A DNA stretch of 42,697 nucleotides, from IMG/VR virus record IMGVR_UViG_3300036820_000034, positions 1-42,697 of that record. One strand, given 5' to 3'. Under the pieces are notes generated by a model, which searched no databases, was not told where the DNA came from, and was given only the letters and a program-made list of their open reading frames with translations. Source of the stretch: a virus. Shown here piece by piece: positions 15,414 through 41,076 of this stretch (position 1 is the first letter of the stretch; every line of letters begins with the position of its first letter). The position numbers and the translations under genes were made by a program.

Positions 15414-15461
15414 GATGTGCTCTTTATCACATTTCCGATGATCCGATCTAGGACGCGCGCC

Positions 15462-17120
15462 TCATTTCTTCAGCTCCCTCACCTTGAGCACTGTGTTTGT
15501 CCATTGCAGCTCAGCGCTCCCCGATGATCCGGCCGTCAACGCCACTGACGCATGCAGGCTGTAAGTATGCGTGCCGGCCGCCGGTACATTGAACTCGCTC
15601 AAATAGAAGAACGCCGGCAAGCCGTTCAACAACGACATCTGCGCCTGCGTCACCAACTGCTCCATGGTTCCAACTTGCGATCCATCCATGTAGAGCGAAA
15701 ACGTCGTCGCTATCGTGCCACCGGCCGCAGGCGAGATCAGAACCAGAGCGGTAGCGGTGATTTCCACCCAGCCACCATCCGAGGTGTAGCTGACCGTCTC
15801 CATCGTCTCCTGTACCGTGCCGCTATCGGTGTATGGCCATGTGGCGCTTGACCCAGCGACGTCCACTATGAAACCGTAGTTCGACACCGCGTTGGCCGCA
15901 ATCTGCGGCGTATTGATGGTGAGGTTCGCAATCTGTGAGGCGGTGATGGTGAGATTCGCGATCTGCGTCGCGGTCACAGTGGCATTCGCGATGTTGCTCG
16001 CGGTGATCGTACCGGCCGCGATCTGCGTTCCGGTGATCGTCGCATTCGCCAACTGCGTACCAGTGATCCCGGCGGTGCCTGAGATTTGCGCTGCCGTAAT
16101 TGTCGCGTTCGCGATATTAGTCCCCGTCACGGTCGCGTTCGCGATCTGCGTCGCCGTGATGGTCCCGTTGGCGATGTTCGTAGCGGTGATCGTCGCATTA
16201 GCGACGTTCGAGCCGTCCACTCCACCGGTAGCGATTTGACTCGATCCTATCGTCCCATTGGCGATCTGGTTGTTGGTGATCGTAAGATTTGCGATCTCCG
16301 CAGCCGTAATCGTGAGGGACTGGATATTAGACCCCGAGATCGTCGAGGCGGCGATATTCGCACCACTCACCGTGGCGGCGGCGATGTTAGCCCCCGTCAC
16401 AGTCCCCGTGCTGATGTTCGCCCCGGAGATCGTCGCAGCCGCAATCTGGCTGCCCGTAATGCCAGCGCTACCCGAGATCTGCGTCGCCGTGATGGTTGCA
16501 TTCGCGATCTGTGTGGCAGTGATCGTCGCACTGGCAATCTGGGTGCCCGTAATCGTGCCGTTCGAGATGTTGGACCCGGTGATGGTCGCCGAATCAATCA
16601 TCGTCCCGGTAATGGTGGCGTTCGCGATCTGACTCGCCTCGATCGTGCCGCCAATGTCCCCGAACGTGAGCCCGCTTGCCAGCGCCAACCAGTAGCCGCT
16701 ACTTGTCGTCGGGTCTTCGGCCAGGCTGTCCTGCAGGGCGATGTAGAGCCTGGAATCAGACCCCGCGACCTCATCCCCCAGGTAATACTGAATGGTAGCG
16801 GACCAAGCACCCTTGAAGACCGCCGAAATGTGCTGCCAGGACGTCCCGTTCCAAGTGTAGAGATTGTCGTCGCTTTCCTGGTATACGAACTGCCCCACGA
16901 ACGAGCCCGCTTGCGGCAACGTCGGGACGATCTGCAGCAGCGAAATGTTGGACGAGTTCTCAGTGTTATAAACGACGTCCTGGATGCCCTGCGCGGTGAC
17001 CGGCAAGCCGGTGGTGAGCACACTCTGGTTCTGTGCCCACATCGTCAACTGCTGCATCCAGTTGTTCCAGTCCTGCTCCGAGGGCTGGTAATAGAGCGGC
17101 TGGACGAGACTGCCACTCAC
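15462..17120 (-). CDS. Tail fibre with 25 ten-residue repeats
   Basis: A 552-aa fibre-like protein. Residues 1-60 are an attachment-like domain with WNNWMQQLTMWAQNQS. At 85-155 is a module with YTWNGTSWQHI and a carbohydrate-binding-like pattern (GAWSATIQYYLGDEVA...LYIALQD...GYW). Residues 159-410 are 25 consecutive units of the form T-I-T-x-x-x-I-A-N-A, two of them with an extra residue (AGIT...), likely folding as a beta-helix or solenoid. The C-terminal 140 residues look like a beta-sandwich tip that may bind the receptor. It overlaps the upstream hub gene by four bases. Long hydrophobic frames on the plus strand are artefacts of the repeat. Confidence 0.75.
   Translation of the reverse strand: MSGSLVQPLYYQPSEQDWNNWMQQLTMWAQNQSVLTTGLPVTAQGIQDVVYNTENSSNISLLQIVPTLPQAGSFVGQFVYQESDDNLYTWNGTSWQHISAVFKGAWSATIQYYLGDEVAGSDSRLYIALQDSLAEDPTTSSGYWLALASGLTFGDIGGTIEASQIANATITGTMIDSATITGSNISNGTITGTQIASATITATQIANATITATQISGSAGITGSQIAAATISGANISTGTVTGANIAAATVSGANIAASTISGSNIQSLTITAAEIANLTITNNQIANGTIGSSQIATGGVDGSNVANATITATNIANGTITATQIANATVTGTNIANATITAAQISGTAGITGTQLANATITGTQIAAGTITASNIANATVTATQIANLTITASQIANLTINTPQIAANAVSNYGFIVDVAGSSATWPYTDSGTVQETMETVSYTSDGGWVEITATALVLISPAAGGTIATTFSLYMDGSQVGTMEQLVTQAQMSLLNGLPAFFYLSEFNVPAAGTHTYSLHASVALTAGSSGSAELQWTNTVLKVRELKK
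15891..16646 (-). repeat. Array of about 25 diverged 30-bp coding repeats in the tail fibre
   Basis: Each unit encodes T-I-T-x-x-x-I-A-N-A or close variants. Two units carry three extra bases (codons for A-G-I-T). The nucleotide copies differ at many third positions, so the array is old or kept diverse. It offers homology for unit gain and loss. Confidence 0.8.
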
Positions 17121-20632: not shown

Positions 20633-21658
20633 TTACAGCGGCACGACGCCAGTGAACAGCGTCCCGGATGACCCCACAGTACCCACCCGGCCTTGCGTCC
20701 GGGGCTTCACACACACCAGCTCCAGGAACGACAGGATCGCTCCGATGTACCCCAACTGATACACCGGGAGCAGGCTCTCAAAGCCCGTCCAGGTGAAATT
20801 CGCCATGTGGTGGAAGTAGAGCGAGGCGTAGTCGAGGTTGAGCATCAGCATGATGCCCTCCGGGCAGTACGGGTCGCAGTACACCGGCACGCCACCGACA
20901 TCGAGCGCACGGAAGCCCGCCCGCGGCCGATCGGGGGTGGAGTCGAATCCCCGGCCCGGCTCGATAAAGTAAGTGGTCTGCGTGTCGAAGGTCTGCGCGA
21001 GCGCGAGCCAGGTGCCCATGCCCATGATTGCCATGGTGGGCATCTCGGTCGAGTTCTTCTGCACGCCGACCATGTACTGCAGGACATTGTTGCGGCTCGG
21101 CGTCGCGCCAGCGGCGCTGTAGACCTTGCCGGCCCAGAACGTCGAGCTGTAGCGGTTGATGCCACCGTAGGTCGCCGCGTTCGTGCCGTCATCGGCCATC
21201 GCCATAAGACCAGTGATCTGCTGCGTGTCCGTGATGTTGTTCCAGCACGCGTTCGAGAGGACATCTGCCGTCGAGTTCGTGGCGTCGTTGAACAGCGCCT
21301 CGATCCGAGGAACGACGGCATGCTGATCCTGCACGACGGCTTCCATCCCGTAGTACGGGATCGGGGTGATGAGCCCCTTCAGGTTGAACTCCGCCGGCTC
21401 GATCCCGGGGATGTACTCCGGCTGGTTGAACTGGCCCGAAAAGCCATTCATCCACTGCGGGATCGTCATCGGTGATCCCTGGACAGGGACCGTGATGGAC
21501 GGAATACCGCCGGAAGCCGTCTTCGCGTGGGCCATGAGCCCGGCAAGGAGCGGCGATGCCTGATAGATCTGGACGTACATCGTGGGGATGAACGCCCGGC
21601 GGGTAATCGCTTGGTACTCAGTGAGCTGAGCACCGGTTGGCATGATGCCGTTGGCCAT
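20633..21658 (-). CDS. Major capsid protein (HK97-fold candidate)
   Basis: A 341-aa protein directly downstream of the scaffold-like gene and upstream of the adaptor, the standard place for the major capsid gene. The N-terminus has LTEYQAITRRAFIPTMYVQIYQASPLLAGLM. The middle has a conserved-looking QQITGLMAMADDG and YGGINR, and later WLALAQTFD, FDSTPDRPRAGFRALDVGGVPVYCDPYCPEG and FLELVCVKPRTQG, as in the P-domain and A-domain strands of HK97-type capsids. There is no protease gene nearby, so cleavage is not indicated. Confidence 0.75.
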   Translation of the reverse strand: MANGIMPTGAQLTEYQAITRRAFIPTMYVQIYQASPLLAGLMAHAKTASGGIPSITVPVQGSPMTIPQWMNGFSGQFNQPEYIPGIEPAEFNLKGLITPIPYYGMEAVVQDQHAVVPRIEALFNDATNSTADVLSNACWNNITDTQQITGLMAMADDGTNAATYGGINRYSSTFWAGKVYSAAGATPSRNNVLQYMVGVQKNSTEMPTMAIMGMGTWLALAQTFDTQTTYFIEPGRGFDSTPDRPRAGFRALDVGGVPVYCDPYCPEGIMLMLNLDYASLYFHHMANFTWTGFESLLPVYQLGYIGAILSFLELVCVKPRTQGRVGTVGSSGTLFTGVVPL

Positions 21659-23092: not shown

Positions 23093-23112
23093 CTGCAGGT
23101 TTTACCCTGCAG
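23093..23112 (-). terminator. Hairpin at the end of the portal gene
   Basis: An inverted repeat CTGCAGG/CCTGCAG with a 6-base loop that includes the portal TAA stop. On the minus strand it is followed by TTTGAGC, a very short U-tract, so it is at most a weak terminator or an mRNA 3'-end stabiliser. Confidence 0.4.
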
Positions 23113-24832
23113 CTCGTGTCGGCTTTTGCCCTCGGGAGCGCTTCGATTGAATCTGTGCAATTTTCACTTGCAGAGCTTCCTGATGCGCTTGGGCCTCGGC
23201 CGGCTCGATCTTCTCTTTCAGGGTCTTAATTAACTGCTTTTTACGCGGGATGTCAAGCAGCTCCAGCGCGTCTTCCTTGTCGATACACTTCAGTTGGAGC
23301 AGCTTGAAAATCTTCGCCTCGAAGGCATTCAGGAATAGCGGCGAGCTGGAGTGCCCGTCCACCTTCGCGACGAAATCCCCGGGGAACTCATGCGCGAAAA
23401 ATTCCTCCGCATCCTGGTCGCGATCGGCGCGCAGCGGTCGTTTGTCGTAGACCTGGATCACCCGCACCACGGTCGTCGCGAGCGCGTTCAGCGGCTTCTC
23501 GATTTCGAGCGCCTTCGCCTTCGGGCGAGCCGCACCGAGTTCCGCGAGTTCCGCCGCCTGTTTTTCCGAGCGCACGCCCTTGGGGTTCTTGCCCTCGGCA
23601 ATCTGCGGGATACCCGAGACCTCATTGAACATCGAGTCGATTTCGGCGACGTCGTTCCAGAGATCCCCGGGGATCTGTGGCTGCTCTGATTTTATCGTCG
23701 CGCCCTGATCGCCGATGGCGAGAATACCGGAGGGTGTATCAAGGGCGAGCCGCATCTCATCCGGAATACCGCTCACGCCCGTCATCGCGGTGGGGGCATG
23801 CGCCTGTTTCTTCAGCAGATGCCGGATGTCCTGGATGCGCTCGGTGCGCATGTCCTGGATGGGCATCAGCGGCTCACAAGTTGAATACCCGTAGAAGTAA
23901 TCGTATGCCGGGCGCGGGATCACCGGGATGTAGGGAATCGTCTTCGGCACGAACACCTTCCCAATGGGCTGATCCCAAATCGGGATATCAACATCAGCAA
24001 GCGTGACCACGCGCCAGTCGCCGAGATCATCATCGAACACGTACAACTCAGTCATCCTGACGAGGTTCTCAGTCACGGTCGGCCGGTAGACGGTCGAAAG
24101 CGGCGTGGCGAGCATGTTGGCGACGCCTGATACTGAGCCACCCTGGATGGAGGTCACGATGAGGTTGTCGATAGCAGCTCCCGCACCGATGGAATCCGAC
24201 CCGATGGCGCCGGCCTGAAGGAGCGTCTGGATTTCCTTGATGCCGGGATGCGCTGCGGCTTTCAAATCACCGAGCAGTTGCGATTCGGTGATGACGTAGC
24301 TCTCGCAGAACGCCTCCTGGCGGTAGATTCCCGGCCGATCCTCGCGTAATACTCCGAAATTGCCCGGCTCGACGAGATAATGGCGCAATTCAAATGTCGA
24401 TTCTCCGTCCATGGTTTTGTGGACCTTCGGACAGAGCTTTATGAACATCGCGCCGTAGACGTTGCCCCAATCAACTGCAAGTTTGAACGTGTCATCGAGC
24501 CCGATGTTGACGCCACCCTCCCAGACTTGTTTCAGTGAGTCCACCATCGGGTTGATCCAAGCGTCAAATGGCTCATCCGGGACCGAGGGTCCCAATTCAA
24601 TGTTAAATCGAGTCGTATCCGGGGCAAACATGAAACTCGAAAGCTGGTCAATGTGCGGTCCGGTCTTGTTGTAGCGGGTCGCATCGGTCGCGCCATACTC
24701 GCTCATGCCAAAGAGGTAATACGAGCGCGCCATCATGTAGAACGCACGTCGCGACTGTTGGCTCGCGGTGCATTTGCGGATGAGGTCTGTATAGAACTCC
24801 AGCCGCGCAAACTTATCAGTTGGAACTTTCAC
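23102..24832 (-). CDS. Portal protein
   Basis: A 576-aa portal protein of the podoviral type that forms the dodecameric DNA entry ring. Features: an N-terminal FYTDLIRKCTASQQSRRAFYMMARSYYLFG helix region, then ATRYNKTGPHIDQLSSFMFAPD, KLAVDWGNVYGAMFIKLC, the PIPVIPRPAYDYFYGYS-like clip region, MPIQDMRTERIQDIRHLLKKQAHAP, EVSGIPQIAEGKNPKGVRSEKQAAELAELG, and a basic C-terminus. The GTG at 24832 overlaps the upstream gene by 17 bases; a frame extending to 24910 would overlap it much further and is rejected. It sits two genes downstream of the terminase. Confidence 0.85.
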   Translation of the reverse strand: MKVPTDKFARLEFYTDLIRKCTASQQSRRAFYMMARSYYLFGMSEYGATDATRYNKTGPHIDQLSSFMFAPDTTRFNIELGPSVPDEPFDAWINPMVDSLKQVWEGGVNIGLDDTFKLAVDWGNVYGAMFIKLCPKVHKTMDGESTFELRHYLVEPGNFGVLREDRPGIYRQEAFCESYVITESQLLGDLKAAAHPGIKEIQTLLQAGAIGSDSIGAGAAIDNLIVTSIQGGSVSGVANMLATPLSTVYRPTVTENLVRMTELYVFDDDLGDWRVVTLADVDIPIWDQPIGKVFVPKTIPYIPVIPRPAYDYFYGYSTCEPLMPIQDMRTERIQDIRHLLKKQAHAPTAMTGVSGIPDEMRLALDTPSGILAIGDQGATIKSEQPQIPGDLWNDVAEIDSMFNEVSGIPQIAEGKNPKGVRSEKQAAELAELGAARPKAKALEIEKPLNALATTVVRVIQVYDKRPLRADRDQDAEEFFAHEFPGDFVAKVDGHSSSPLFLNAFEAKIFKLLQLKCIDKEDALELLDIPRKKQLIKTLKEKIEPAEAQAHQEALQVKIAQIQSKRSRGQKPTRAAG

Positions 24833-25319
24833 GCTTGGGCTTGTGCAAGATGGTGTTATGACGGAGGAAATTCTTGCCTTCAGGCGCCTCCAGCACGGGT
24901 CGCAGGGCACTGGAGGTCATCCGTAAGTCAGGCATTGAAGGCTTTTGTGGGTTAAACACAGGAGGCGCCTCACCACGCCGGGCCCATCCCTCCTGGAATT
25001 GGAACGGTTTACCAGTCCAGCGGGCCAATTGCTGGGGCGCCCAGGACCGTCGGGCGCCAGCCGGGCCGTAAATCCCCCGCGAAGGATCAGGACCGCGACC
25101 ACCGTCGTTCGACATATTGCTCAGGCTGTAATCGGAAGCTATATGGTCCGTGAATCGATCGATTGTCGTCGTACCACCGGAACGGATTGAAGGTGCCGTA
25201 CGGAATTCGCGGGTGATGACGGACCCAGTGCAGCCGAATGGGCATGCGGGTACCTCATTGGAGTAGCTCTCAAACTCTTTGTTGTGAGCTACGCATCGCC
25301 ATTCGTATATCGCCGCCAT
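24816..25319 (-). CDS. FmdB-like zinc-ribbon protein between terminase and portal
   Basis: A 167-aa protein whose N-terminus, IYEWRCVAHNKEFESYSNEV, followed by PACPFGCTG, resembles the FmdB-type putative regulatory zinc ribbon (usually M-P-I-Y-E-Y-x-C-x-x-C...C-x-x-C). Here one cysteine of the first pair seems to be replaced by His. The rest is Pro/Gly-rich and probably extended. The ATG at 25319 overlaps the terminase stop as TGATG. Its role is unknown. Confidence 0.65.
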   Translation of the reverse strand: MAAIYEWRCVAHNKEFESYSNEVPACPFGCTGSVITREFRTAPSIRSGGTTTIDRFTDHIASDYSLSNMSNDGGRGPDPSRGIYGPAGARRSWAPQQLARWTGKPFQFQEGWARRGEAPPVFNPQKPSMPDLRMTSSALRPVLEAPEGKNFLRHNTILHKPKRESSN

Positions 25320-27160
25320 CAGAGAGTTCTCCCGATCCCAGGACCGGGCAAGTTATACGCCTTCACGCCAGGAGCTTCCACCTTGGGCCGATTCTTGATT
25401 CCGATCTGCTCCAGATATCGTGACACATGGCGCTCGATGATGGTAGGCGCCCGATCCGGAGCGCTCACCTCATCCGGCGGCTTCCAGATGACGTTCTGCA
25501 TGATGAGCCGGGAGATCATCTGGTCGTAGTACGCCTTGTGAGCGAGCGCGGCGGCGATCACCCGGTCATCCTTGGCATTGCCTTCACCCCGGATCTCAGA
25601 GCCTTCCCGGGTCGTGGTCGTCATTTCATCGATCAGCTCTCGGGAATGCGGCACGAAAAGCCCGCGCTCGAAGACGTCCCGATAGGCGGACATGTACGAG
25701 TCCTTGATACGGGACGTGGTGATCGTATGCATCGAGCGGGAGCGCTGGGACACGGCATCCTCGCGCACGTAGTAGTACGCCTGGATGTTGCGCATGATGT
25801 CGAGCATGGTCTTGGCCTGCCCGGGTATCCAGCTCTTGGCGCAGCGCTTTTTCAGCTTGTCCAGCTCCATGAGGACGGCGCCACCTGGACCATTGAACTC
25901 GACGTTCAAAACGCAAGGCTGGTAGCAGCCGGCGAGGTAGGCGATCACCCAGGCGAATTGATCGGTGCGCAGCTCCGTGACGCAGAACTCCGCAACCTGC
26001 TCCTCGCGGTTCGCCCAGCAGCGATGTACCTGTAGGACATATCGATCGGCATTCACGCTGGAACCGTACGCTGGATCGGCGCCCACGGTGTAGAAGCCGC
26101 CCTTGACCGGTTCCTCCCAGACTTTGAGGTGGGCACCCTTCTCGCGGCATTCCTCGGCGAGTGTGTCAGTAAACTCAGCGCCAAAGTATATGTGATAGCA
26201 CTTCGGCTTGGGCTCCTTCAAACACCGGTTGTATGCCTTGGTGAGATCGGCACCTCGAAAGAATTTGCTCGCGCTGGACTGAAACGCCTCCTCTGGTGTA
26301 GTCGGGAACTCCTGCATCATCATCTCGTCAGATGTTGCCACTTCAGCCCGATAGCAGCGATACCATGCCAGATGTTCTGGAGTTAGTTCAAAGTCGAAAT
26401 CTTGCTGCAACCTGGCATGCCAGTCCCGCTCATCCTTCGTCATGCGTCCCTTGGCGCCCCAGAAGACTTGGAATGCCTTGGTATCCCGTTCGGCTCGATA
26501 TAGGTCATTTGCCCACCAGCCGATGAAGATCGGCCACATCCCGACACTGTCCTGCGCGGTGAGCCACATGTCCTGGAAGAAGTTGTGCCCGTTCGCGGTC
26601 GATTCCCAGTGATAGAAACGGTTGGGATTGCGCTTTGCCATGGTGGCCCGAAGCGAATCGATCTGCTGCGGATCACCCCAAAATGCCACCTCCGTCATGT
26701 GACCCATGGTGATGGCGGACGAGCGGCCGAGGTTCGCCGAGCGCATAGTCTCGCCCGCGACGAGGTACTGTATGATCGAGCGATTCGCCAGCACCCACTG
26801 ATTGCGGTTGTGCTGAATCTCCTCAATTTTCCAATCATCTGGGAGACCAGAGTAGTAGGTCGCCAAGGTAGACCGAAAGAGGTCGAGCGCTCTATCCGTA
26901 TGTAGCACGATCGCCCCGCGCGTCCCGGGGAATCGGAAGCCGTAGTACATGTCGATAGCGAGCGTTTCGGTCGAGATTCCGATCTGGCGGCACTTCAAGG
27001 TGATGAAGTCGTGGTAGCCCTCACTCATCCCCCGCCGGATCTCGTTGTTTAAACGAGTCTGCGTTGAGAGCCGATGCGCGCCCAACTTGACCGAGCCGAA
27101 TTCCTTCGTATCGATCCAGAGCTGGCTCGTGAAGTTTTGGTAGTCTTGCCAGTCGATCAC
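25319..27160 (-). CDS. terL: Terminase large subunit
   Basis: A packaging motor of about 613 aa. The ATPase domain has a Walker A-like LKCRQIGISTE near residues 55-65, the deviant form common in phage terminases. A following QYLVAGETMRSANLGRSS...HMTEVAFWGDPQQIDSL carries the Walker B region (EVAFW) and coupling motif. The RNase H-like nuclease domain shows VGADPAYGSS, VEFNGPGGAVLMELD and KDDRVIAAALAHKAY with the metal-binding Asp residues. I chose GTG 27160, which overlaps the lectin stop as GTGA; TTG 27175 is an alternative. No small terminase was recognised. A TGTTTAAACG site is at 27046-27055. Confidence 0.9.
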   Translation of the reverse strand: MIDWQDYQNFTSQLWIDTKEFGSVKLGAHRLSTQTRLNNEIRRGMSEGYHDFITLKCRQIGISTETLAIDMYYGFRFPGTRGAIVLHTDRALDLFRSTLATYYSGLPDDWKIEEIQHNRNQWVLANRSIIQYLVAGETMRSANLGRSSAITMGHMTEVAFWGDPQQIDSLRATMAKRNPNRFYHWESTANGHNFFQDMWLTAQDSVGMWPIFIGWWANDLYRAERDTKAFQVFWGAKGRMTKDERDWHARLQQDFDFELTPEHLAWYRCYRAEVATSDEMMMQEFPTTPEEAFQSSASKFFRGADLTKAYNRCLKEPKPKCYHIYFGAEFTDTLAEECREKGAHLKVWEEPVKGGFYTVGADPAYGSSVNADRYVLQVHRCWANREEQVAEFCVTELRTDQFAWVIAYLAGCYQPCVLNVEFNGPGGAVLMELDKLKKRCAKSWIPGQAKTMLDIMRNIQAYYYVREDAVSQRSRSMHTITTSRIKDSYMSAYRDVFERGLFVPHSRELIDEMTTTTREGSEIRGEGNAKDDRVIAAALAHKAYYDQMISRLIMQNVIWKPPDEVSAPDRAPTIIERHVSRYLEQIGIKNRPKVEAPGVKAYNLPGPGIGRTL

Positions 27161-28932
27161 GGATTGTAGGTCCAATTGGTGACGGTTTGCTTAAACGGCG
27201 TGCTGTAGACTGAAGCGCTGAATCCCACATACGCCGTACTCGCGCCGACTGCAGAAGGGATGTTCACCGTCCAGGTTCCATTGAAGATCGTCGTGGTCGT
27301 CATATCCTCTACCGAATATGTGAGCACTGTCCCATTGTAGCTGTAGGTGAATTTTATCACGTGCCCGCTATCAAGCGTGATGCCGGTGGGCGTCGTACCA
27401 GTCCCATTCGGCATTGTGCCGTTGGTGACCTCAGTCAACTTGTTATTCCAGCCGTCGAAGACCATGGCCGCGCTTTCTTGAATGCCGGCATAGCCAGCAC
27501 CGATGTCGCTCGCCCCGTAAACCGGGAAACCGAGCGCGTTCGGACCGCCGCTGATTGAGGGAATCGAGGCAAGCTGGCCAGTCGTCGTCGAGCTGACCGA
27601 AGATGGAATGACGTTTTGGAAGATGAAGGCGAGTCCGTTCTGGTCACTCGACCCAGTAAACTGGAACTCAAACACCCCGGAGAATACCGCGATGCTCACA
27701 GGCGCGTTATAAAAAGCCGAGCCTACTTCAGCTCCGTCTACAGTCGCGCTGTCGGTGAGCTGGAGGGCGCCGCTCGCAAGCGTCGTCATGCCGTTGAGAG
27801 ATATCCGGCCATCAGCGGTAAAGCCGCTCGGGTAATTGATCTGCGGCAGGCCGCTCGCCTGGATCTGATAATCCCCCACCGTCGGGAAGCTGTCGGACCA
27901 GTTTGACTCCACCGCGACCGCTTGCAGGATCGCGCTTGAGCTGATCGACACCGCCCCGGTGTACAAGGTTGATGCTGGCGTCGGCGGTTGGCCGTTGACC
28001 GTGTAATAAATCGAGGCCCCGGCAGGGCCTGAGATTCCCACTGATTGCGTGCTCGTGTACTGCCCTGGCGTCACGCTGAAGGTAGGAGATGCCAAGCGCT
28101 CGTTGTACCCACTCCACCAGGTCCAGGAGTTCAAGGTCTGTGGCGTAGCGGGGGAATTTTCGCCTGCCCCCGCGCCGAAGCCGATGTAGGCGGTGTCACC
28201 CCCAACGATCGTCGGGATATCGACCGGCCATTGCTCGTAAGCAATCGCACCGGTAGTGGTGTCAGTAAGCAGCAGTGAAAGAATCGTTCCGTCATAAACG
28301 ATGAAGGCATTGTAGAGATGTCCCGACCACAGATTGATCCCCTGGGGAATCAGGTCCTGAGTGGGCGAAAGTCCATTGTCGAGATAAGGACCGCCATTCA
28401 GATACATCCCAGTCGCGCTGGGATCAGTCCCGAACCACCCGCTACCAGTCCCGTTATTCGGAGTCGAATTAAACGCGATGGTGACCGCGGGCTGAGTCGC
28501 AGTACCGAGTGGATTGCTGGGCGGGGCGTACTGTCCGAAGCCCAAGCCATTGGAATCACCCTGCGCGCCTGTACCGGTGACATCATTCTGGATACTGAAC
28601 GAAACGCCGTAGCCAATGAGTTGCGGAGATCCGGTCCCCGGCCCGACTGAGAAGTTAAACGAGGTCGCGAAGGATTGGATATTCTGCTTTGTAGTGCGCC
28701 AGACCTGGCCTGCATCGTGAACAGTGTTCCCACAAATCTGCATGATGCCGCCGGTTGTGTTCTCCCACGAACCGGTAAGGCCACTAGTTGAAGTGAAGTT
28801 GGGATAGGTGAAAACCTGTGTCGCGCCACCGCCGCCAGAAGCCACAGCGCCCCCCCGCGCGAGCTTCGCCTGCGCAAGCGGCGCACAGAACAGCAGGGCT
28901 GCTAGCGCGACGAATTGTCGCCGTAGGATCAC
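27157..28932 (-). CDS. Secreted twin L-type lectin-like protein
   Basis: A 591-aa protein with a Sec signal peptide (MILRRQFVALAALLFCAPLA, cleavage after AQA). Residues about 40-275 resemble a legume/L-type lectin fold (SFATSFNFSVGPG; GYGVSFSIQND; PAVTIAFNSTPNN). A short Ig-like module like the CHB_HEX_C domain follows (FSVTPGQYTSTQSVGISG; IYYTVNGQPPTPASTLYTG). A second lectin-like domain covers about 365-591 (AFYNAPVSIAVFSGVFEFQF; NGLAFIFQN; AAMVFDGWNNKL). It probably binds glycans outside the cytoplasm or on the virion. It overlaps both terL and the upstream gene. Mature start KLARGGAVA matches that of the gene at 29651. Confidence 0.7.
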   Translation of the reverse strand: MILRRQFVALAALLFCAPLAQAKLARGGAVASGGGGATQVFTYPNFTSTSGLTGSWENTTGGIMQICGNTVHDAGQVWRTTKQNIQSFATSFNFSVGPGTGSPQLIGYGVSFSIQNDVTGTGAQGDSNGLGFGQYAPPSNPLGTATQPAVTIAFNSTPNNGTGSGWFGTDPSATGMYLNGGPYLDNGLSPTQDLIPQGINLWSGHLYNAFIVYDGTILSLLLTDTTTGAIAYEQWPVDIPTIVGGDTAYIGFGAGAGENSPATPQTLNSWTWWSGYNERLASPTFSVTPGQYTSTQSVGISGPAGASIYYTVNGQPPTPASTLYTGAVSISSSAILQAVAVESNWSDSFPTVGDYQIQASGLPQINYPSGFTADGRISLNGMTTLASGALQLTDSATVDGAEVGSAFYNAPVSIAVFSGVFEFQFTGSSDQNGLAFIFQNVIPSSVSSTTTGQLASIPSISGGPNALGFPVYGASDIGAGYAGIQESAAMVFDGWNNKLTEVTNGTMPNGTGTTPTGITLDSGHVIKFTYSYNGTVLTYSVEDMTTTTIFNGTWTVNIPSAVGASTAYVGFSASVYSTPFKQTVTNWTYNP

Positions 28933-29654
28933 TGAATCACCACCGGCTTGCCATTTGACATGAGCACGTGCCCGTTGGAGATGACGAAGGCCGGCTTTGC
29001 CGAACCGCCCACTTCATAAGCCGCGAGCATGGAAACCCACGCCTCAGTGGGAGAAATCGTCACTCCCGAACTGATAGACGTCGGGCCGGTCGTTTGCACG
29101 AGGTAGGCATCGGCCATCGAGGGGCCGCCAACCGATTGTCTATCCTGGGTAAAGGAGTTCGTCCAGGCGCTGAACGTTACAGCTCCAGAACCGGTCTTGA
29201 TTAATGTGAGGAAGAACTCGTTGTTGCTCGCTGGAGATAGGCTGTTGGTCACAGGTGACACACTGCTGCCGCTATTCTCCGCTACGGCTTGGTCCAGAAT
29301 CACCCCTGGAGTCACTTCCAAAACAACGACGTAAATCTCGGTAAAGCCGCTGTAGGGGATGGAGAACGTCTGAGCCGAGGCGATGGAACTCGCCACTCGG
29401 ATATATTCAAAATGCGCCGTCGTGACATCCTGAATGGCCGTGCTCAATGAATTAGTCGGCGTCCCAAAGGTGCCCGTTCCGCTCGCCATCACGCCGACGA
29501 GGACGCTATCACCGGCAGTGTTTGGAGTGAACGTAACCGAAGCGGGGCTAGCGGTATATCCTTGTATGGTGGTGCTTTTAACAAATGCAGGGATTGCCTG
29601 CGCAACACCGGAGGCCGCCAAGAAGACCAAAAATAAGGATTTGAGAAATTTCAT
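28929..29654 (-). CDS. Secreted beta-rich protein
   Basis: A 241-aa protein with a signal peptide, MKFLKSLFLVFLAASGVAQA, cleavage before IPAF. The mature part alternates Ser/Thr/Val strands (TASPASVTFTPNTAGDSVLV; EIYVVVLEVTPGVILDQA; NEFFLTLIKTGSGAVTFSAW), suggesting a jelly-roll or Ig-like fold. It ends with a short turn-rich strand pair (KPAFVISNGHVLMSNGKPVV). ATGA overlaps on both sides place it in one operon with the lectin. No enzyme motif is seen. Confidence 0.65.
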   Translation of the reverse strand: MKFLKSLFLVFLAASGVAQAIPAFVKSTTIQGYTASPASVTFTPNTAGDSVLVGVMASGTGTFGTPTNSLSTAIQDVTTAHFEYIRVASSIASAQTFSIPYSGFTEIYVVVLEVTPGVILDQAVAENSGSSVSPVTNSLSPASNNEFFLTLIKTGSGAVTFSAWTNSFTQDRQSVGGPSMADAYLVQTTGPTSISSGVTISPTEAWVSMLAAYEVGGSAKPAFVISNGHVLMSNGKPVVIQ

Positions 29655-31699
29655 TGGAGTTGATATCCACGCTCACCGATGAGAGATGAATAGCCGGAAT
29701 AAGTCGAATTGAGTTGCCCTATTGCTGCGCAACCGGTGGTAACGGAAAGACATACGATGCTGCTCGCACCTGAGCTATCCACGACATTGTTGGCATCAGT
29801 AATTACCGCTCCAGTCGGCGGTGGAGCTGTTGCATTGGTCGTCGCAAAGATGTTGGAGAGATACGTAAAGGGCGCCGCTGTTACAATCGCTGTGCTGGTG
29901 GATGGCGGAGCTGCGGTAGTACCTGCTGCCCCTGTATCCGTCCAGGTGAGCACGTTGCCGAGTGAATATTGAGTCCAGCAGCCCGCACCGCCGCCGCACG
30001 ACGTCAGTTCACGGTAGCCGTTGTAGCCCGTAGCGCCGGGTTCGGCGAGGTACGACACTACTGCAGCGGTATCGCTGCCAGGCAGCGTATAAGCATTCTG
30101 ATTACTGCTGCCAGCCGCCGGACCGTGCGCGCCCGAGGCGCTCCCGTAGCTTCCGATGGTGCAGCCGGACTCGCCTGTGTTCCCAAGAGAGGTCACGCAC
30201 CACGTATATTCATCGCCGGCAGTTAATGTGCCTCCTGTCGTGCCGACAACATTGACGTAGCCAGGGCCTCCAGGTCCTTCTAGATTATAAGCTGTCTGGG
30301 AATTCACGAGACCTGGGTTGGCCCCAGAAAGTATCGTGTTTCGGAAGACGGCGAGCCCTTGCCAGGTAAAGTGATCGCTGCCGCCTACCTGTATTTCACC
30401 CAGCCCCACTGCGAGGTTGTAATCTACCTGATTGCTGCCATTTCCTGCAGACTGCGACCCAAAGCCGCCCAACCCTTGAGTGACAGTTGAATTGATGTAA
30501 TTCTCGCGAAGCTCGCTATCGACTTCATCGATCTTGAAGTAGAAAGCGGATTCCAGGTTTACACCGGGGCTGTTTTCCGAATCGCGCTGAATCAAGGCAT
30601 ATTGGAAGGCGTAGAGATCGATGAATCCGATGTTGTTTACGCCAGCTCCGGTCTCCCGGCCGGACTCTACGGAATCGGTGATAAAAAGATACTGTCGGAG
30701 TGTCTGCTGACCGCTGGTGACGAACACCGACATGTTGCCGGCGCCGCCAGTTCCGTATCCCGTATTTGTCCAGTAAGTCTGATCGAACGTCAGCCTAGAC
30801 GAAGTTCCTAGGAGGACGTATTGGTCAACTGCAGCGGTGTTGTAGCCATTGACCGTCGTATTTTCCATATACCAGTCAGGGGCATGACCGCCAAGCTGAA
30901 TAAAATGCGGCAGAGTCGATACATCCCCGGCGGTTCCATCCAGCGTGACGGTCTGTCCCGGAATCCCTATGATCGCATCGGGCTTGCGAGTGCTATAGGG
31001 CTCGAAACCGTTTACGCCAGTGTCGGTGTCGGTGTAGACGGGAAGATTGGTCGCGCCGGTGTAGGACCCTCCGAACACATAGCAAACGGCACCTGGAAAG
31101 CTCGTCGCAGCGAAGGTTGAGCCGAATGCGGTGGTGAAGCTGCAAGGAATGCTATATGTGCACGTCGAGCCGCTACCGGTCGTAGAGACGAATACGAAGT
31201 GCGTCGTCGTGTCATCGGTCGCGAGCGCCCATGACATATCGATCGTGTTGTGCTGCTGGTCGGTGACCGCAACTTCAACCTCTCCGCTCCAACTGCTTGA
31301 GATATTTCCTTGCGGATGCCAGAGCACGCGGCAATAGGCGGGATTCTGGAATGTCGTGTAGATCGACTGCTCGACCACCATTCCTGGTGGGCCTAAGACG
31401 AGCGTGCAGATGTAAGGATAGGCCCCAAACTCAACACCGATTGCAAGATCATAGGGGATGTCGTTGGTTCCATTCCAGAACGCCCAGTGCTCCCGAGCGG
31501 TGGAGCTAGTAACTCCATCCGCGAGCGGGAATATCGGGACCATGCTCGAAGAGATCGGCGAGACGATCCAATGCCCGGCGGGAAAGAATCCCGTGGGCGC
31601 AATCGCACCGCCACGCGCAAGCTTCGCGTGGCCTATCCCAGGACAGAGGAGCGCTGCCGAAGCGACCAGCGCAATGAGGAAGCGAGCGAAACGACTCAT
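29651..31699 (-). CDS. Secreted right-handed beta-helix-like protein
   Basis: A 682-aa protein with a signal peptide, RFARFLIALVASAALLCPGI, cleavage after GHA. The middle third has the stacked Asn/Ser-rich strands of a parallel beta-helix (WYMENTTVNGYNTAAVDQYV; SRLTFDQTYWTNTGYG; SELRENYINSTVTQGLGGFG; FRNTILSG), as in pectate lyases and tailspikes. Later segments contain fibre-like TGGTLTAGDEYTWCVTS. It could be a tailspike-like depolymerase or binding protein, but the signal peptide is unusual for a virion tailspike. The mature N-terminus KLARGGAIA matches the lectin. Confidence 0.65.
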   Translation of the reverse strand: MSRFARFLIALVASAALLCPGIGHAKLARGGAIAPTGFFPAGHWIVSPISSSMVPIFPLADGVTSSTAREHWAFWNGTNDIPYDLAIGVEFGAYPYICTLVLGPPGMVVEQSIYTTFQNPAYCRVLWHPQGNISSSWSGEVEVAVTDQQHNTIDMSWALATDDTTTHFVFVSTTGSGSTCTYSIPCSFTTAFGSTFAATSFPGAVCYVFGGSYTGATNLPVYTDTDTGVNGFEPYSTRKPDAIIGIPGQTVTLDGTAGDVSTLPHFIQLGGHAPDWYMENTTVNGYNTAAVDQYVLLGTSSRLTFDQTYWTNTGYGTGGAGNMSVFVTSGQQTLRQYLFITDSVESGRETGAGVNNIGFIDLYAFQYALIQRDSENSPGVNLESAFYFKIDEVDSELRENYINSTVTQGLGGFGSQSAGNGSNQVDYNLAVGLGEIQVGGSDHFTWQGLAVFRNTILSGANPGLVNSQTAYNLEGPGGPGYVNVVGTTGGTLTAGDEYTWCVTSLGNTGESGCTIGSYGSASGAHGPAAGSSNQNAYTLPGSDTAAVVSYLAEPGATGYNGYRELTSCGGGAGCWTQYSLGNVLTWTDTGAAGTTAAPPSTSTAIVTAAPFTYLSNIFATTNATAPPPTGAVITDANNVVDSSGASSIVCLSVTTGCAAIGQLNSTYSGYSSLIGERGYQLQ

Positions 31700-33384
31700 T
31701 ACGATCCGCCGCAGGGACCGAAGGTGCTCGTATCACCGCTTACGATCGTGCCAGAAAGGGTGACGCTGGTGGACGAATGGGCTGTCTGGCGCCAAGTGTC
31801 GGTCGAGGTCGTCTCATCATCTGCGCTGCAATGCCAGATACCGTTTGGCGCAGTCGGCAATGCGATGATGATCGTGGAAGCGCCAGAGGTTCCTGTGCAG
31901 ACGAACTTGCCGGTAGCGGTGCCACCACTGGTTGTTATGTCAGCAGTCAAACACGCGCCTGTTCCTGTGGCGGTGAACTTCGTGCCTTCATCGAGGAGGT
32001 AGGTGACCCCGGCGTTGAACGATATGGCGGTGCCGTAACCCAAATAGTTACCACTCGCGGCATCGACGGTCTGCGCCCAAAGCGAGGGGCCGACGACAAG
32101 TGTGGCATTGCCATTGATCGTGCCACTCGCCGGGGTGACCGTGACGGTCGTCACGCTGCTCGCAGAGATGTCGATACCGCAGGATGATCCCGTGGGAGCG
32201 GGGCTACTGACAGCAACCGCTCCGGCGTAGCTAAAATATACCCCGTTGGCGCAGTCAGCAGAGGTGATCGAGCCGGTAGCCCCGGTGACGGTGCGAACCG
32301 CGTAAGCCGAATTACACTGAACGTTTCCAGCCGAAGGATTCGAGCAGGTGATGCCGACGCCATTCTCAATGTTGAGATTCGACTGAGTGGAATTATTCGT
32401 GCCATTGGTCTGAAGCGTCGCCCCGCCAATGCACCCGCTCGTCGTCAACGCACCGCTGGTTCCATTCGGGCACACTGGAGAGGTGCCGGCGGTGAGCGCG
32501 GAATCGATGAGACCTGCGAAAGTATTTATGGCCGTGAAGGTTTGCGCAAGATTGAGTTCAGCGATCACCCCAGTGTTAGCCGGGACCTCTATCGAGTAAT
32601 TAGTTGCCGAGGCATTCTCGCTTTGAAAAGCCGTATATCCAGTAGATGAACCCTGAACTGCAAGATTTGCATTCGTGAATATGTTGCCTTGGGTCCATGT
32701 CTGCGAGTTTGTGAGTAACGGCAGCGTGACCCCAAGGGCGGTATTCAAATTAGCCGGCGTAGGGGTGACGAGCCAGGTCGCGATGCCGGTGCCTGGCACC
32801 AGGGTTGCCAGGGCGCCAAATGCCGTGCCACCGGTATGGGTACAGGTGATGACGCCCGCGCTCGATAGGGTGCAATCTCCCGACAGCGTGAGAGGCGCGT
32901 AAGCCGTGCCCCCCGAATTTCCGACCGGGAGCTGCCCGGCGGATGGAACTGAGGACGAGCCGAGACCACCGTTTGAGGCCGTGAGTGGATCAGTGAGCCC
33001 CAACGAGATCGCAGCGAGTGTTGTAAACACCCCGCTATTCGCCGTCCCCGTCCCGATCGGTGGAGGGGATGCGGGAGTGCCGGTCCAAGATCCACTGCCA
33101 CCACAAGTCGCCCACAGCGCTGTCGTGCCGTTATTCGAGAGGCAGTCCCCGTTTACGAACGCAGGCAGCATGTTGCCCGAGATGATGAGCCATGCGGCAA
33201 GCTGGGGCGGCGTCGCTTCGACCGTGCTCGCGTTCGTGCAGGGCGCGAGGGTCGCGCAGCCTTGACTCGTCAGGAATCGCTCCGTCCCCGTGAACGTCGC
33301 CGCGTTGTTATAATTTCCCAGGGTTGGCGTCGCGGCGATCCCGAGCGCCGGCAACAGCAGCAGAGTAAGAAGGAGCAGTTTCAT
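31699..33384 (-). CDS. Secreted fibre-like low-complexity protein
   Basis: A protein of about 561 aa starting MKLLLLTLLLLPALGIA, a signal peptide, then ATPTLGNYNNAATFTGTERFL. It is rich in Gly, Thr, Ser and Asn with tail-fibre-like segments (GTGTANSGVFTTLAAISLG; TASNGGLGSSSVPSAGQLPV) and two Cys-containing turns. The N-terminal half resembles phage fibre linkers, but the export signal is clear. The ATG at 33384 is two bases after the PASTA gene stop. A longer frame upstream to 33567 is a shadow of the PASTA repeat region and is rejected. Confidence 0.65.
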   Translation of the reverse strand: MKLLLLTLLLLPALGIAATPTLGNYNNAATFTGTERFLTSQGCATLAPCTNASTVEATPPQLAAWLIISGNMLPAFVNGDCLSNNGTTALWATCGGSGSWTGTPASPPPIGTGTANSGVFTTLAAISLGLTDPLTASNGGLGSSSVPSAGQLPVGNSGGTAYAPLTLSGDCTLSSAGVITCTHTGGTAFGALATLVPGTGIATWLVTPTPANLNTALGVTLPLLTNSQTWTQGNIFTNANLAVQGSSTGYTAFQSENASATNYSIEVPANTGVIAELNLAQTFTAINTFAGLIDSALTAGTSPVCPNGTSGALTTSGCIGGATLQTNGTNNSTQSNLNIENGVGITCSNPSAGNVQCNSAYAVRTVTGATGSITSADCANGVYFSYAGAVAVSSPAPTGSSCGIDISASSVTTVTVTPASGTINGNATLVVGPSLWAQTVDAASGNYLGYGTAISFNAGVTYLLDEGTKFTATGTGACLTADITTSGGTATGKFVCTGTSGASTIIIALPTAPNGIWHCSADDETTSTDTWRQTAHSSTSVTLSGTIVSGDTSTFGPCGGS

Positions 33385-33386
33385 TT

Positions 33387-33917
33387 TCACGGGGATACCC
33401 CTAATGAGAGGGTGAGGGCGACGTAGGAGCCCGGGAGGACTGCCGCGCCTGCGGCCGGGGACTGCGCGAACACGCACCCGGCCGGCAGATATGTGACCAG
33501 GGGATTGCCGTTGGAATCGATGACGGGATTGCCGTTGGAATCGATGACGGGAGCCGAGATCTCCCACTGGAATCCGGTCGCCGTCAGGTTGAGCGCCGCG
33601 AGCGCCGCCCGGGCATCGGCGACGGTGAGCCCGTAGAGATCCGGAACGGCCACTGTGCCCGGAGCCGGCGTCGGGGCGCCCGTGCTCGCTGCGAGCCGCA
33701 CGCCATTGGAGTATGGGCCGTACCAGTAATTATCGGTATCAGTCTCGAAGACGTATCCCCAGGGCACCGTCGTGAGCACCGGATTACCGTTGGAATCGAT
33801 GACGGGATTGCCGTTGGAATCGATCATAGGAACCTGCCCCGGCTCCCAATCGACCCACGGGAACTCCCCAGCGTTGACCGCCGCGAGGACCGCTTCGGCG
33901 ACGGTCTGATCGGCCAT
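33387..33917 (-). CDS. PASTA-domain protein with duplicated octapeptide insertions
   Basis: A 176-aa protein with a PASTA-like core: VAVPDLYGLTVADARAALAALNL, then PAGCVFAQSPAAGAAVLPGSYVALTLSLG. In bacteria PASTA domains recognise peptidoglycan stem peptides or lipid II. Two places carry tandem copies of the octapeptide V-I-D-S-N-G-N-P (about residues 31-46 and 124-139), the second within the PASTA fold. There is no signal peptide, unlike the next four genes. It may be a virion wall-binding part. It follows the small basic gene by seven bases. Confidence 0.7.
   Translation of the reverse strand: MADQTVAEAVLAAVNAGEFPWVDWEPGQVPMIDSNGNPVIDSNGNPVLTTVPWGYVFETDTDNYWYGPYSNGVRLAASTGAPTPAPGTVAVPDLYGLTVADARAALAALNLTATGFQWEISAPVIDSNGNPVIDSNGNPLVTYLPAGCVFAQSPAAGAAVLPGSYVALTLSLGVSP
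33510..33554 (-). repeat. Tandem 24-bp repeat, copy A (IDSNGNPV units)
   Basis: Two adjoining copies of a unit that reads GGATTGCCGTTGGAATCGAT on the plus strand plus four bases, inside the PASTA coding region. The same unit reappears at 33780-33828. Confidence 0.85.
33780..33828 (-). repeat. Tandem 24-bp repeat, copy B (IDSNGNPV units)
   Basis: Two units nearly identical to copy A, differing at a few positions (GGATTACCG in the first). They encode the octapeptides near residues 31-46 of the PASTA protein. Confidence 0.85.
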
Positions 33918-35311: not shown

Positions 35312-35458
35312 TTAGATTTCGATTATCACTCCGCTTTTACCCAACGAGCGAGCATATTTTACCGTCCAACAGCCACCTGACTTCACGTGCGAATCAGTCT
35401 TGCAGTGGTAGCAATACGGAAACCGCTTGTCCTCGTGTGAATCGCCATATGGTGCCAC
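35312..35458 (-). CDS. Possible small cysteine protein whose 5' end is inside tRNA-Thr
   Basis: An open frame of 48 codons ending FPYCYHCKTDSHVKSGGC, then WTVKYARSLGKSGVIIEI. The C-x-x-C and later Cys, with an ordered basic C-terminus, look like a real small phage protein. The only start is GTG 35458 inside the tRNA acceptor stem, with no RBS, and an in-frame stop lies just upstream within the tRNA. It may be a gene whose 5' end was replaced when the tRNA arrived. Confidence 0.4.
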   Translation of the reverse strand: MAPYGDSHEDKRFPYCYHCKTDSHVKSGGCWTVKYARSLGKSGVIIEI

Positions 35459-35527
35459 GGGTAGGATTTGAACCTACGACCCGCGCCTTACGAGAGCGCC
35501 GCACTAAACCAACTGTGCTACCGTGGC
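35450..35527 (-). tRNA. tRNA-Thr(CGT)
   Basis: A complete cloverleaf can be drawn: acceptor GCCACGG/CCGTGGC with A73 and encoded CCA, D stem GCAC/GTGC with loop AGTTGGTTTA, anticodon stem GCGCT/GGCGC (one U-G), loop CTCGTAA giving anticodon CGT, variable loop of five, T stem GTAGG/CCTAC with loop TTCAAAT. It reads ACG threonine codons. Its 5' end overlaps the HTH gene stop by ten bases. Confidence 0.95.
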
Positions 35528-39247: not shown

Positions 39248-40318
39248 ATGACGATACGATGCATGGGGTGCTCCAGCCTCACGGCTGAGAGCGAGATCAC
39301 CCGAACGATCGACAATTGCAGTTTCTGCCCTGAATGTACCAGCCGTCACACCGTCGAGGTGACGGGCGGGCGTTGCTATCGTGGAAACACCATTGTCTCT
39401 TATGACACCAGCGTGCGCGAATGGATCGGAACGGCGCGCGAGAACGGCTGGGAACGCTCCGAGAATTCAAGAGAGTGGTACGAGCATCCCGAGAATATGC
39501 CGTGTGAGCCGTTCTCGTATCACACGAACGTGTTCGATCACTGCGAGTCGCTACACACGTTCCCGTCGAATAAACTGCTGCTCGGCGTCGAACTCGAGAT
39601 GGAGCCGCGCTGCCCCGAGACCGAAGCGCAGACCGAAATCGTGAAGCGCTTGAACGGGCCGGCGGCCGAGCATTACATCTGCACCACGGATGGCTCACTC
39701 AATTACGGCGTCGAGATGGTGACGATGCCGTTGACGTTGGAGGAACATAAAGGAGTGTTTGGCTGGGAGGGCGTGCTCGGACGGGTCGCGAACATCGCGA
39801 AGTCCGGGAAGGGAACGCAAAACTGCGGCATGCACGTGCACATCAATAAGCGTGCGTTGACGCCGTTGACGATCGGGAAAATGATGGTGTTCCTGAATGC
39901 CGATCGTACCGATTCGCTGGTCGCGAAGATTGCGCAGCGTCGTAACAACGGATTCTGCGAGAAAAAAGACGGCGCGTCGCTGAAGGATGCGCGCCGGTAT
40001 GCCGAGAGCCGCTATCAGCGCTTGAACCTGCAACCCTCCGAGACCGTGGAACTGCGGTTATTTAAAGGGAATCTGCGCCCCGAGCGCGTGCTGAAGAATC
40101 TCGAATTCGCGCACGCCACGGTGTGTTTCTGCAAGGATGCCTCCATGAAGGACGTCGATAGCCCAGCCGCGTTCTTGGCATTCATTCATAAGCACCGTGG
40201 CACGTACCCGAACCTTACACGGTTCCTGCAGGAGACGCACACGAGTACGTTCACGCGCGCGTTTAACCGCAATCCGATCGAAGGCAAGGCCGCCGCTCCC
40301 GTGCTGGAGGAGATTTAG
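39248..40318 (+). CDS. Putative amidoligase (COOH-NH2 ligase type)
   Basis: A 356-aa protein. Residues 1-32 carry a zinc-ribbon-like start (CMGC...CSFCPEC). The catalytic domain shows LLLGVELEMEP at 111-121, TTDGSLNYGVEMVTMPLT near 145-162 and NCGMHVHINKRAL near 193-205. These follow the G-x-E-x-E...D-G-S-L...E-x-V-T...C-G-x-H-V-H pattern of the phage/bacterial amidoligase family related to glutamine synthetase and GCS2. Such enzymes make ATP-dependent amide bonds between carboxyl and amino groups of peptides. The next gene is a class II glutaminase, a combination noted in comparative studies of these ligases. The substrate is unknown. Confidence 0.8.
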   Translation: MTIRCMGCSSLTAESEITRTIDNCSFCPECTSRHTVEVTGGRCYRGNTIVSYDTSVREWIGTARENGWERSENSREWYEHPENMPCEPFSYHTNVFDHCESLHTFPSNKLLLGVELEMEPRCPETEAQTEIVKRLNGPAAEHYICTTDGSLNYGVEMVTMPLTLEEHKGVFGWEGVLGRVANIAKSGKGTQNCGMHVHINKRALTPLTIGKMMVFLNADRTDSLVAKIAQRRNNGFCEKKDGASLKDARRYAESRYQRLNLQPSETVELRLFKGNLRPERVLKNLEFAHATVCFCKDASMKDVDSPAAFLAFIHKHRGTYPNLTRFLQETHTSTFTRAFNRNPIEGKAAAPVLEEI

Positions 40319-40320
40319 TT

Positions 40321-41076
40321 ATGTGTCTCATTGCGTATTCTCCGAAAGGCACGCCGATGACGCGCGCGGTGTTCGATACCGCCCGGTGGGTGAACGCCGA
40401 TGGTATTGGCGTCATGTCCCGTCACGGTGTTGAGAAGTTTGTCGGCCACAAGGCCGGTAAGCGCGCCTGGCGGTATTTGCGAGTCCTGCCACCTGACACC
40501 CCGTACGCGGTTCATTTCCGCTACGCGACCCATGGAGCGGTCTGCCGTTACCTCACACACCCGTTTCAGATCCCGGGCCGTGAGAGTTATGTGATGCATA
40601 ACGGGATCATCAGTAAGACGGCGAATTTTGCGAAAAAAGGCATCGTGAGCGATACCTCACTGTACGTGGCGTGGTACATGAAGGATGCGCCCGCCCCGAG
40701 TGAGCCAACGCACGTCGCGTTCAAGAAAGGACTGGAGAAAGAGATCGGCTGGGGGAATAAGATGGTGATATTCCACGCCGATCGCAACGAGTGGGATATC
40801 GCGAACGAGGATGAGGGTGAGTGGATTGACGGGGTTTGGTACTCGAATACGTATAGCTTGCCCGATGAGATGCGGCCGGCAGCGGCGTATGGGACGGGAA
40901 AGTACTGTGACTGGTACGACAGCCTCTCGCCCGAGACCGTGAAATGGTTGCGAGAGCGCGACTGGCAGAATAAGCCGCTGCTGCCGAGCGGGCCGATTCT
41001 GTTGCCGGATGACAATGGTGGTTACGAGGTCGCCGAGAATGGCGAACCGTATATGATCCCTGAGGAGGGTAAATAA
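40321..41076 (+). CDS. Class II glutamine amidotransferase-like protein
   Basis: A 251-aa Ntn-fold glutaminase. Cys2 of MCLIAYSPKG is the expected nucleophile after Met removal. HFRYATHG (about 60-67) and YVMHNGII (about 90-97) match the R-x-x-x-H-G and H-N-G-x-x motifs of GATase class II. Such domains release ammonia from glutamine or cleave amide bonds. It begins two bases after the amidoligase stop, so the two are almost certainly co-expressed. The second half contains DIANEDEGEWIDGVWYSNTY and a C-terminal Pro/Asp-rich tail. Confidence 0.85.
   Translation: MCLIAYSPKGTPMTRAVFDTARWVNADGIGVMSRHGVEKFVGHKAGKRAWRYLRVLPPDTPYAVHFRYATHGAVCRYLTHPFQIPGRESYVMHNGIISKTANFAKKGIVSDTSLYVAWYMKDAPAPSEPTHVAFKKGLEKEIGWGNKMVIFHADRNEWDIANEDEGEWIDGVWYSNTYSLPDEMRPAAAYGTGKYCDWYDSLSPETVKWLRERDWQNKPLLPSGPILLPDDNGGYEVAENGEPYMIPEEGK

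Follow-up and report, generated by a model that had tools for sequence, protein, structure and literature searches.

The prevailing view is that tailed phages build their fibres in the cytoplasm. Phage lambda carries a signal-peptide gene, lom, between those for the tail spike and the tail fibre (PMC12309495). Outside phages, the exported, phage-fibre-like MAT proteins of Bdellovibrio have been shown to bind surface glycans (PMC10769870), and signal-arrest-release and Sec-exported endolysins are examples of tailed-phage proteins that rely on the Sec machinery of the host (PMC6116005). The GH32 enzymes of Bacillus phages are thought to be extracellular and lack signal peptides (PMC4595243), depolymerases, some of them diffusible (PMC10521650), are usually tail-borne, and a survey of the target proteins of phage-encoded DGRs detected no signal peptides (PMC6199706). 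In the literature searched, whose coverage was partial and leaves novelty unproven, no run of leader-bearing lectin and fibre-like genes beside terL has been described.

Here we analyze such a run in an IMG/VR virus record of 42.7 kb, the whole of which we call the window. Like lom, it represents leader-bearing tailed-phage coding sequence among virion genes (PMC12309495); however, Lom is the product of one gene, an outer-membrane beta-barrel expressed in lysogeny, whereas this block comprises four adjacent genes with lectin and fibre-like products and no barrel. The initial annotation of this DNA had assumed that cytoplasmic virion assembly does not normally involve export signals; as a rule for late virion gene runs this premise is too strong, as lambda lom shows (PMC12309495). 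The block shares with the MAT proteins the combination of signal peptides and phage-fibre-like sequence (PMC10769870), but this likeness is by description only: MAT proteins are encoded by bacterial genes, form trimeric fibres, and have a conserved domain of ~130 aa after the signal peptide. A fold comparison between the C-terminal domain of the first block protein and the Bd2439 fibre gave E = 0.27, far from significant. By analogy, MAT could still provide a model of how such an exported fibre-like protein works. Endolysins are lysis enzymes, whereas no lysis domain is present in the block, which is distant from the presumed lysis genes at positions ~7-9.5 kb. Lastly, phage GH32 enzymes (PMC4595243) and diffusible depolymerases (PMC10521650) act on extracellular polysaccharide, as we propose for the block, but neither the usual tail-borne depolymerase nor the signal-peptide-free GH32 enzyme resembles a set of leader genes.

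The block genes (P0001 to P0004) and the relevant neighbors, in order of transcription, are:

33387..33917, minus strand, leaderless PASTA-domain protein, directly upstream of P0001
31699..33384, minus strand, P0001, predicted exported fibre-like protein of 561 aa with leader MKLLLLTLLLLPALGIAA
29651..31699, minus strand, P0002, predicted exported protein of 682 aa
28929..29654, minus strand, P0003, predicted exported protein of 241 aa
27157..28932, minus strand, P0004, predicted exported legume-type lectin of 591 aa
25319..27175, minus strand, terL, with a TTG start and a 19-nt overlap with the end of the block
23102-24910, minus strand, portal
20633-21658, minus strand, major capsid

The terL, portal and major capsid genes, together with a tail-fibre-like gene, form a single minus-strand run. 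The four open reading frames had been called earlier at these positions, and the claims that they overlap one another or terL, lie directly upstream of the terminase gene and span over 6 kb, or about 15% of the genome, agree with our measurements. The junctions from the PASTA gene onward are TGA-aa-ATG, TAATG, ATGA and GTGA, followed by the 19-nt overlap into terL, and the block covers 6228 nt, or 14.6% of the record (a linear virus contig, so that the true genome share may differ). The program-made frame of P0001 opens at 33567; the credible start is the ATG at 33384, which follows the end of the PASTA gene after 2 nt. Promoter-like and terminator-like sites in the window show overall no excess over shuffles, so a single late transcript is something we only infer. 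The top hairpin terminator of the window (35278-35255) lies upstream of the block, and a tRNA-Thr gene with a CGT anticodon is found just upstream of this hairpin (window 35450-35527, minus strand).

To identify leaders, we used a rule that combines a charged n-region, a hydrophobic h-region and an A-x-A-type c-region, and scored it against controls. Among the 46 genes of the window, the four block genes are the only clear passes by this rule, bearing out the earlier reading of four signal-peptide starts. Of 449 in-frame starts internal to genes, a single one passes, and shuffled mature residues equal the real leader score in 0-1 of 5000 trials. By an arithmetic estimate, four leader genes out of 46 would fall next to one another by chance with a probability of about 3e-4. 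In a control set of 82 related or control loci (817 kb; genes of at least 150 aa counted), 2 of 447 genes pass, both in L024, the closest relative, and one of these is a likely false call at the start of an FN3-like protein. Only 2 of 76 low-charge control genes pass, so composition alone does not explain the leaders. All four proteins have the n-, h- and c-regions of Sec/SPase I-type signals, with the c-region of P0001 the weakest, and sites of A-x-A type are present in P0002 (leader ending ...PGIGHA), P0003 (...GVAQA) and P0004 (...PLAQA). Sec export is thus strongly suggested, and we consider it very probable that all four proteins are exported. A competing view, that the leaders are hydrophobic virion-protein starts that aid mutual or membrane binding during assembly, draws on the weak P0001 c-region and on the tolerance that such Ser/Thr-rich proteins could have for a hydrophobic start, and is highly improbable given the low-charge controls, the A-x-A-type sites of the other three proteins, and the cysteine pairing and twin-arginine leaders described below.

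P0004 contains a legume lectin domain (PF00139; 7.9e-19, 68.6 bits against a gathering cut-off of 26.3 in the Pfam profile), a CHB_HEX_C domain (4.2e-14 by profile), and further lectin-like stretches. Its sole plasmid match is an acidobacterial protein with 30% identity over 91% of the length of P0004, which hints at a link between this phage and the Acidobacteriota. For P0001, P0002 and P0003, neither Pfam nor NCBIfam gave an accepted family. P0001 is Ser/Thr-rich, almost chargeless, and ends in a conserved 126-aa domain modelled as all-beta with moderate confidence (pLDDT 62); the sole significant viral fold match of this domain is a phage protein without a name. The fold model of P0002 has a pLDDT of 33. 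P0003 carries a C-terminal SNGHVLMSNGKPV motif that is common to its relatives in L002 and L007. None of the four matches a PHROG tail or head family, nor a beta-barrel family in Pfam, PHROGs or NCBIfam. When annotated phage records were searched by tblastn, nothing was found for P0001, P0002, P0005, P0007, L007-1520 or the L007 twin-arginine protein at 14019-16241; P0004 was matched in its CHB_HEX part alone and P0008 in partial stretches from 33 records.

P0002, P0004 and a GH5-type gene of the L002/L003 lineage have a common [KR][LM]ARGG sequence right after the predicted cleavage site (KLARGG at the mature start of both P0002 and P0004), and ARGG occurs at that site in no other leader protein among the related loci examined. 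We put no weight on this tag, as many bacterial leaders may be followed by ARGG. We also considered recent copying of leader DNA between P0002 and P0004, and rejected it: the stretch in common differs at silent positions (over eight codons from A to A, 5 silent differences and 0 replacements).

Cysteine spacing provides an independent line of evidence for export. P0001 has 16 post-leader cysteines arranged as 8 close pairs, and its 1520-aa relative in L007 (L007-1520) has 24 cysteines arranged as 12 pairs. When the gap sums between neighboring cysteines were compared to chance, the gaps fell below expectation in P0001 (p = 0.02), P0002 (11 cysteines; p = 0.006), the L003 GH5 protein (p = 0.02) and L007-1520 (p = 2e-5). 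The test was non-significant for P0005 (p = 0.13) and for the L023 leader protein (p = 0.27). As controls, six other proteins of the window that contain cysteines gave p values of 0.07-0.61. P0003 and P0004, with 0-1 cysteines, are uninformative on disulfides, and the leaderless fibre-like proteins of the window (13191-15413 and 15462-17120) have zero cysteines. The pairing is what would be expected of disulfides made outside the cytoplasm.

TerL is ~41% identical to those of two environmental phage genomes and up to 49% identical to those of IMG/VR contigs. Upstream sequence of 2.5 kb or more is available for 34 of 80 TerL relatives, and only the two closest, L024 (TerL identity 49%) and L025 (45%), have a comparable low-charge block before terL; in the other 32, no comparable block of large low-charge genes precedes terL. 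The L024 and L025 blocks encode a large FN3-like protein, a 240-aa protein, a small protein and a PASTA protein, without clear leaders. Given this distribution, the site before terL is an accessory locus of the clade, with leaders a feature of the version in the window, and export is non-essential to the role of that locus, whatever it may be. The PASTA proteins of L024 and L025 (3-4 PASTA domains, before terL) are homologous to that of the window, which contains a repeated VIDSNGNPVIDSNGNPV stretch. Profile comparison did not support the 240-aa proteins as leaderless homologs of P0003. L024 also encodes a 234-aa leader-bearing protein (MKRIWLLLTLVAVPCWAAYPAG; L024:13579-14283) ~1.7 kb downstream of terL.

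Relatives of the block proteins themselves lie elsewhere. Searching related phages for the block, as the initial annotation had recommended, uncovered leader-bearing relatives of P0001 and P0003 in two other lineages, beside GH5 or twin-arginine-type proteins. Three IMG/VR contigs of these lineages (L002/L003 and L007) were reached through the C-terminal domain of P0001. In L002, three consecutive leader genes encode a P0001 relative, a GH5-type protein and a P0003 relative, and this block precedes two genes, the second of which is a DUF3383 tail sheath. L003 has the first two genes of this block whole and only the start of the third; its GH5-type gene matches PF00150 (4.7e-9), and the record also contains a Phage_portal_3 portal and another leader protein adjoining the head genes. 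The GH5-type gene of L002 (L002:2249-4458) is split into two open reading frames, compared to one in L003, either by a real frameshift or by a sequencing error. The leaders of the L002 and L003 orthologs differ by 4 silent changes and 1 replacement; these changes are few but in keeping with constraint.

L007 is a 72-kb record with baseplate and Terminase_6N genes, and its block lies downstream of the tail and baseplate genes. Sec-type leaders are present on L007-1520, whose relation to P0001 extends to the mature N-terminal part of the latter, and on a P0003 relative, and the next two proteins bear the twin-arginine leaders MIVTRRTALAG and MPNRRKFLLS:

L007:11642-13678, protein with a Tat-type leader
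L007:14019-16241, adjacent protein with a Tat-type leader

When the window and the related loci were scanned for Tat-like starts, these two alone were found. The protein at 14019-16241 is TIM-barrel-like by eye and has no Pfam enzyme match. P0002 and the third L007 protein both look beta-helix-like by eye, and BLAST finds no relation between them. Members of the P0001 and P0003 families, each with a leader, thus accompany one another in phages that have other portal, terminase or sheath genes, and the place of the block within the virion gene run varies by lineage. Within the searches made, P0001 and P0003 have relatives solely in viral contigs. The A3 alignment against the genome collection gave no confirmed relative, and a profile search of 385 + 369 genomes from two classes gave a single weak match, in a leaderless protein. 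A DNA pattern for the SNGKP motif matched 8 stretches in the genome collection, which we judged to be chance from the surroundings of L011 and the enclosing frames of L012, L014, L015 and L018. A further pattern match, in L009, was set aside; the protein is leaderless and fibre-like.

Based on these data, we propose that the block encodes a late, exported and released glycan toolkit, an account to which, as a whole, we assign a probability of roughly 0.45. The four genes would be translated from the virion gene run through stop-start coupling, Sec leaders would carry the proteins to the periplasm, and P0001 and P0002 would acquire their disulfides there. As no lipobox, sortase motif or barrel translocator was seen in the four proteins, accumulation in the periplasm and release alongside the particles at lysis is the most likely route. 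Once outside, the lectin and fibre-like proteins may bind polysaccharides on debris, neighboring cells or matrix, and in the related phages GH5 and possibly Tat-borne enzymes may cut such polysaccharides; either activity would release progeny or clear a path to fresh cells. The earlier suggestion of action outside the cell is supported as far as export is concerned (by leaders that recur in two other lineages, Tat leaders and paired cysteines), and that of glycan binding by the predicted lectin P0004 and by the GH5 gene of a related block; superinfection exclusion, biofilm effects and post-export fibre assembly, also raised earlier, are each compatible with the data. A glycan-related role for the block is probable. 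More tentatively, these blocks may exemplify a module that recurs across unrelated tailed phages. Its late fibre-like and glycan-active proteins would be made for the periplasm, as marked by Sec or Tat leaders, paired cysteines and, in some, [KR][LM]ARGG, and would either work as a released glycan kit or attach to particles only once the cell has lysed; this generalization is possible, though less likely than not.

The docking alternative takes the proteins to be virion parts finished outside, which are exported, disulfide-bonded and then attached to tails or heads at lysis as accessory receptor- or glycan-binding fibres. It fits the coupling to terL, the location near virion genes in all three lineages, the L002 block two genes ahead of the tail sheath, the L007 block downstream of tail and baseplate genes, and the fibre-like composition of P0001 and L007-1520. 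However, no docking domain was recognised in the proteins and no tailed-phage precedent was found in the literature searched, and we regard this alternative as unlikely, while ranking it first among the competitors. A coupled block with leaders and disulfide-type proteins would mean purposeful use of host export by late phage genes. Particle assembly would then have an extracellular phase, or else the phage would secrete a glycan toolkit that aids neighboring particles.

A slightly less likely alternative is surface masking or superinfection exclusion, in which the exported proteins cover a glycan receptor, on the infected cell or on debris, and keep both progeny and rivals from adsorbing. Receptor blocking of the T5 Llp type is a known phage trait and offers a precedent, P0004 is a predicted exported lectin, and an acyltransferase gene of a type that can alter surface glycans (PF01757; L007:16775-17860, opposite strand) lies beside the exported block of L007. 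However, the block proteins have neither a lipobox nor a barrel to anchor them to the cell, and the gene position suggests late rather than early expression. Nor do they resemble the small, lipobox-bearing lipoproteins of the T5 Llp/Cor type, as they are 241-682 aa long and a sequence check found no lipobox in any of them.

Still less probable is that the block is host-derived cargo, that is, secreted bacterial adhesin and glycan-enzyme genes taken up with their leaders and either bringing the phage little benefit or altering the lysogen. The acidobacterial plasmid match of P0004 fits this origin, and GH5 is also a common secreted family in bacteria. However, all four genes have leaders and are tightly coupled, the relatives of P0001 and P0003 were found in viral contigs alone, the leaders are mostly unchanged between L002 and L003, and no integrase was found among the genes scanned. 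Leader-bearing glycan genes in viral contigs need not be a sign of auxiliary metabolism or of contamination by the host. With related exported blocks in two further lineages, it seems that some phages export proteins that handle glycans from the cells they infect.

Elsewhere in the window, an amidoligase-like gene (PHROG 2443, 7469) precedes an uncharacterized gene that has a PHROG match (39248-41076), and these two are possibly a surface or cofactor modification pair.
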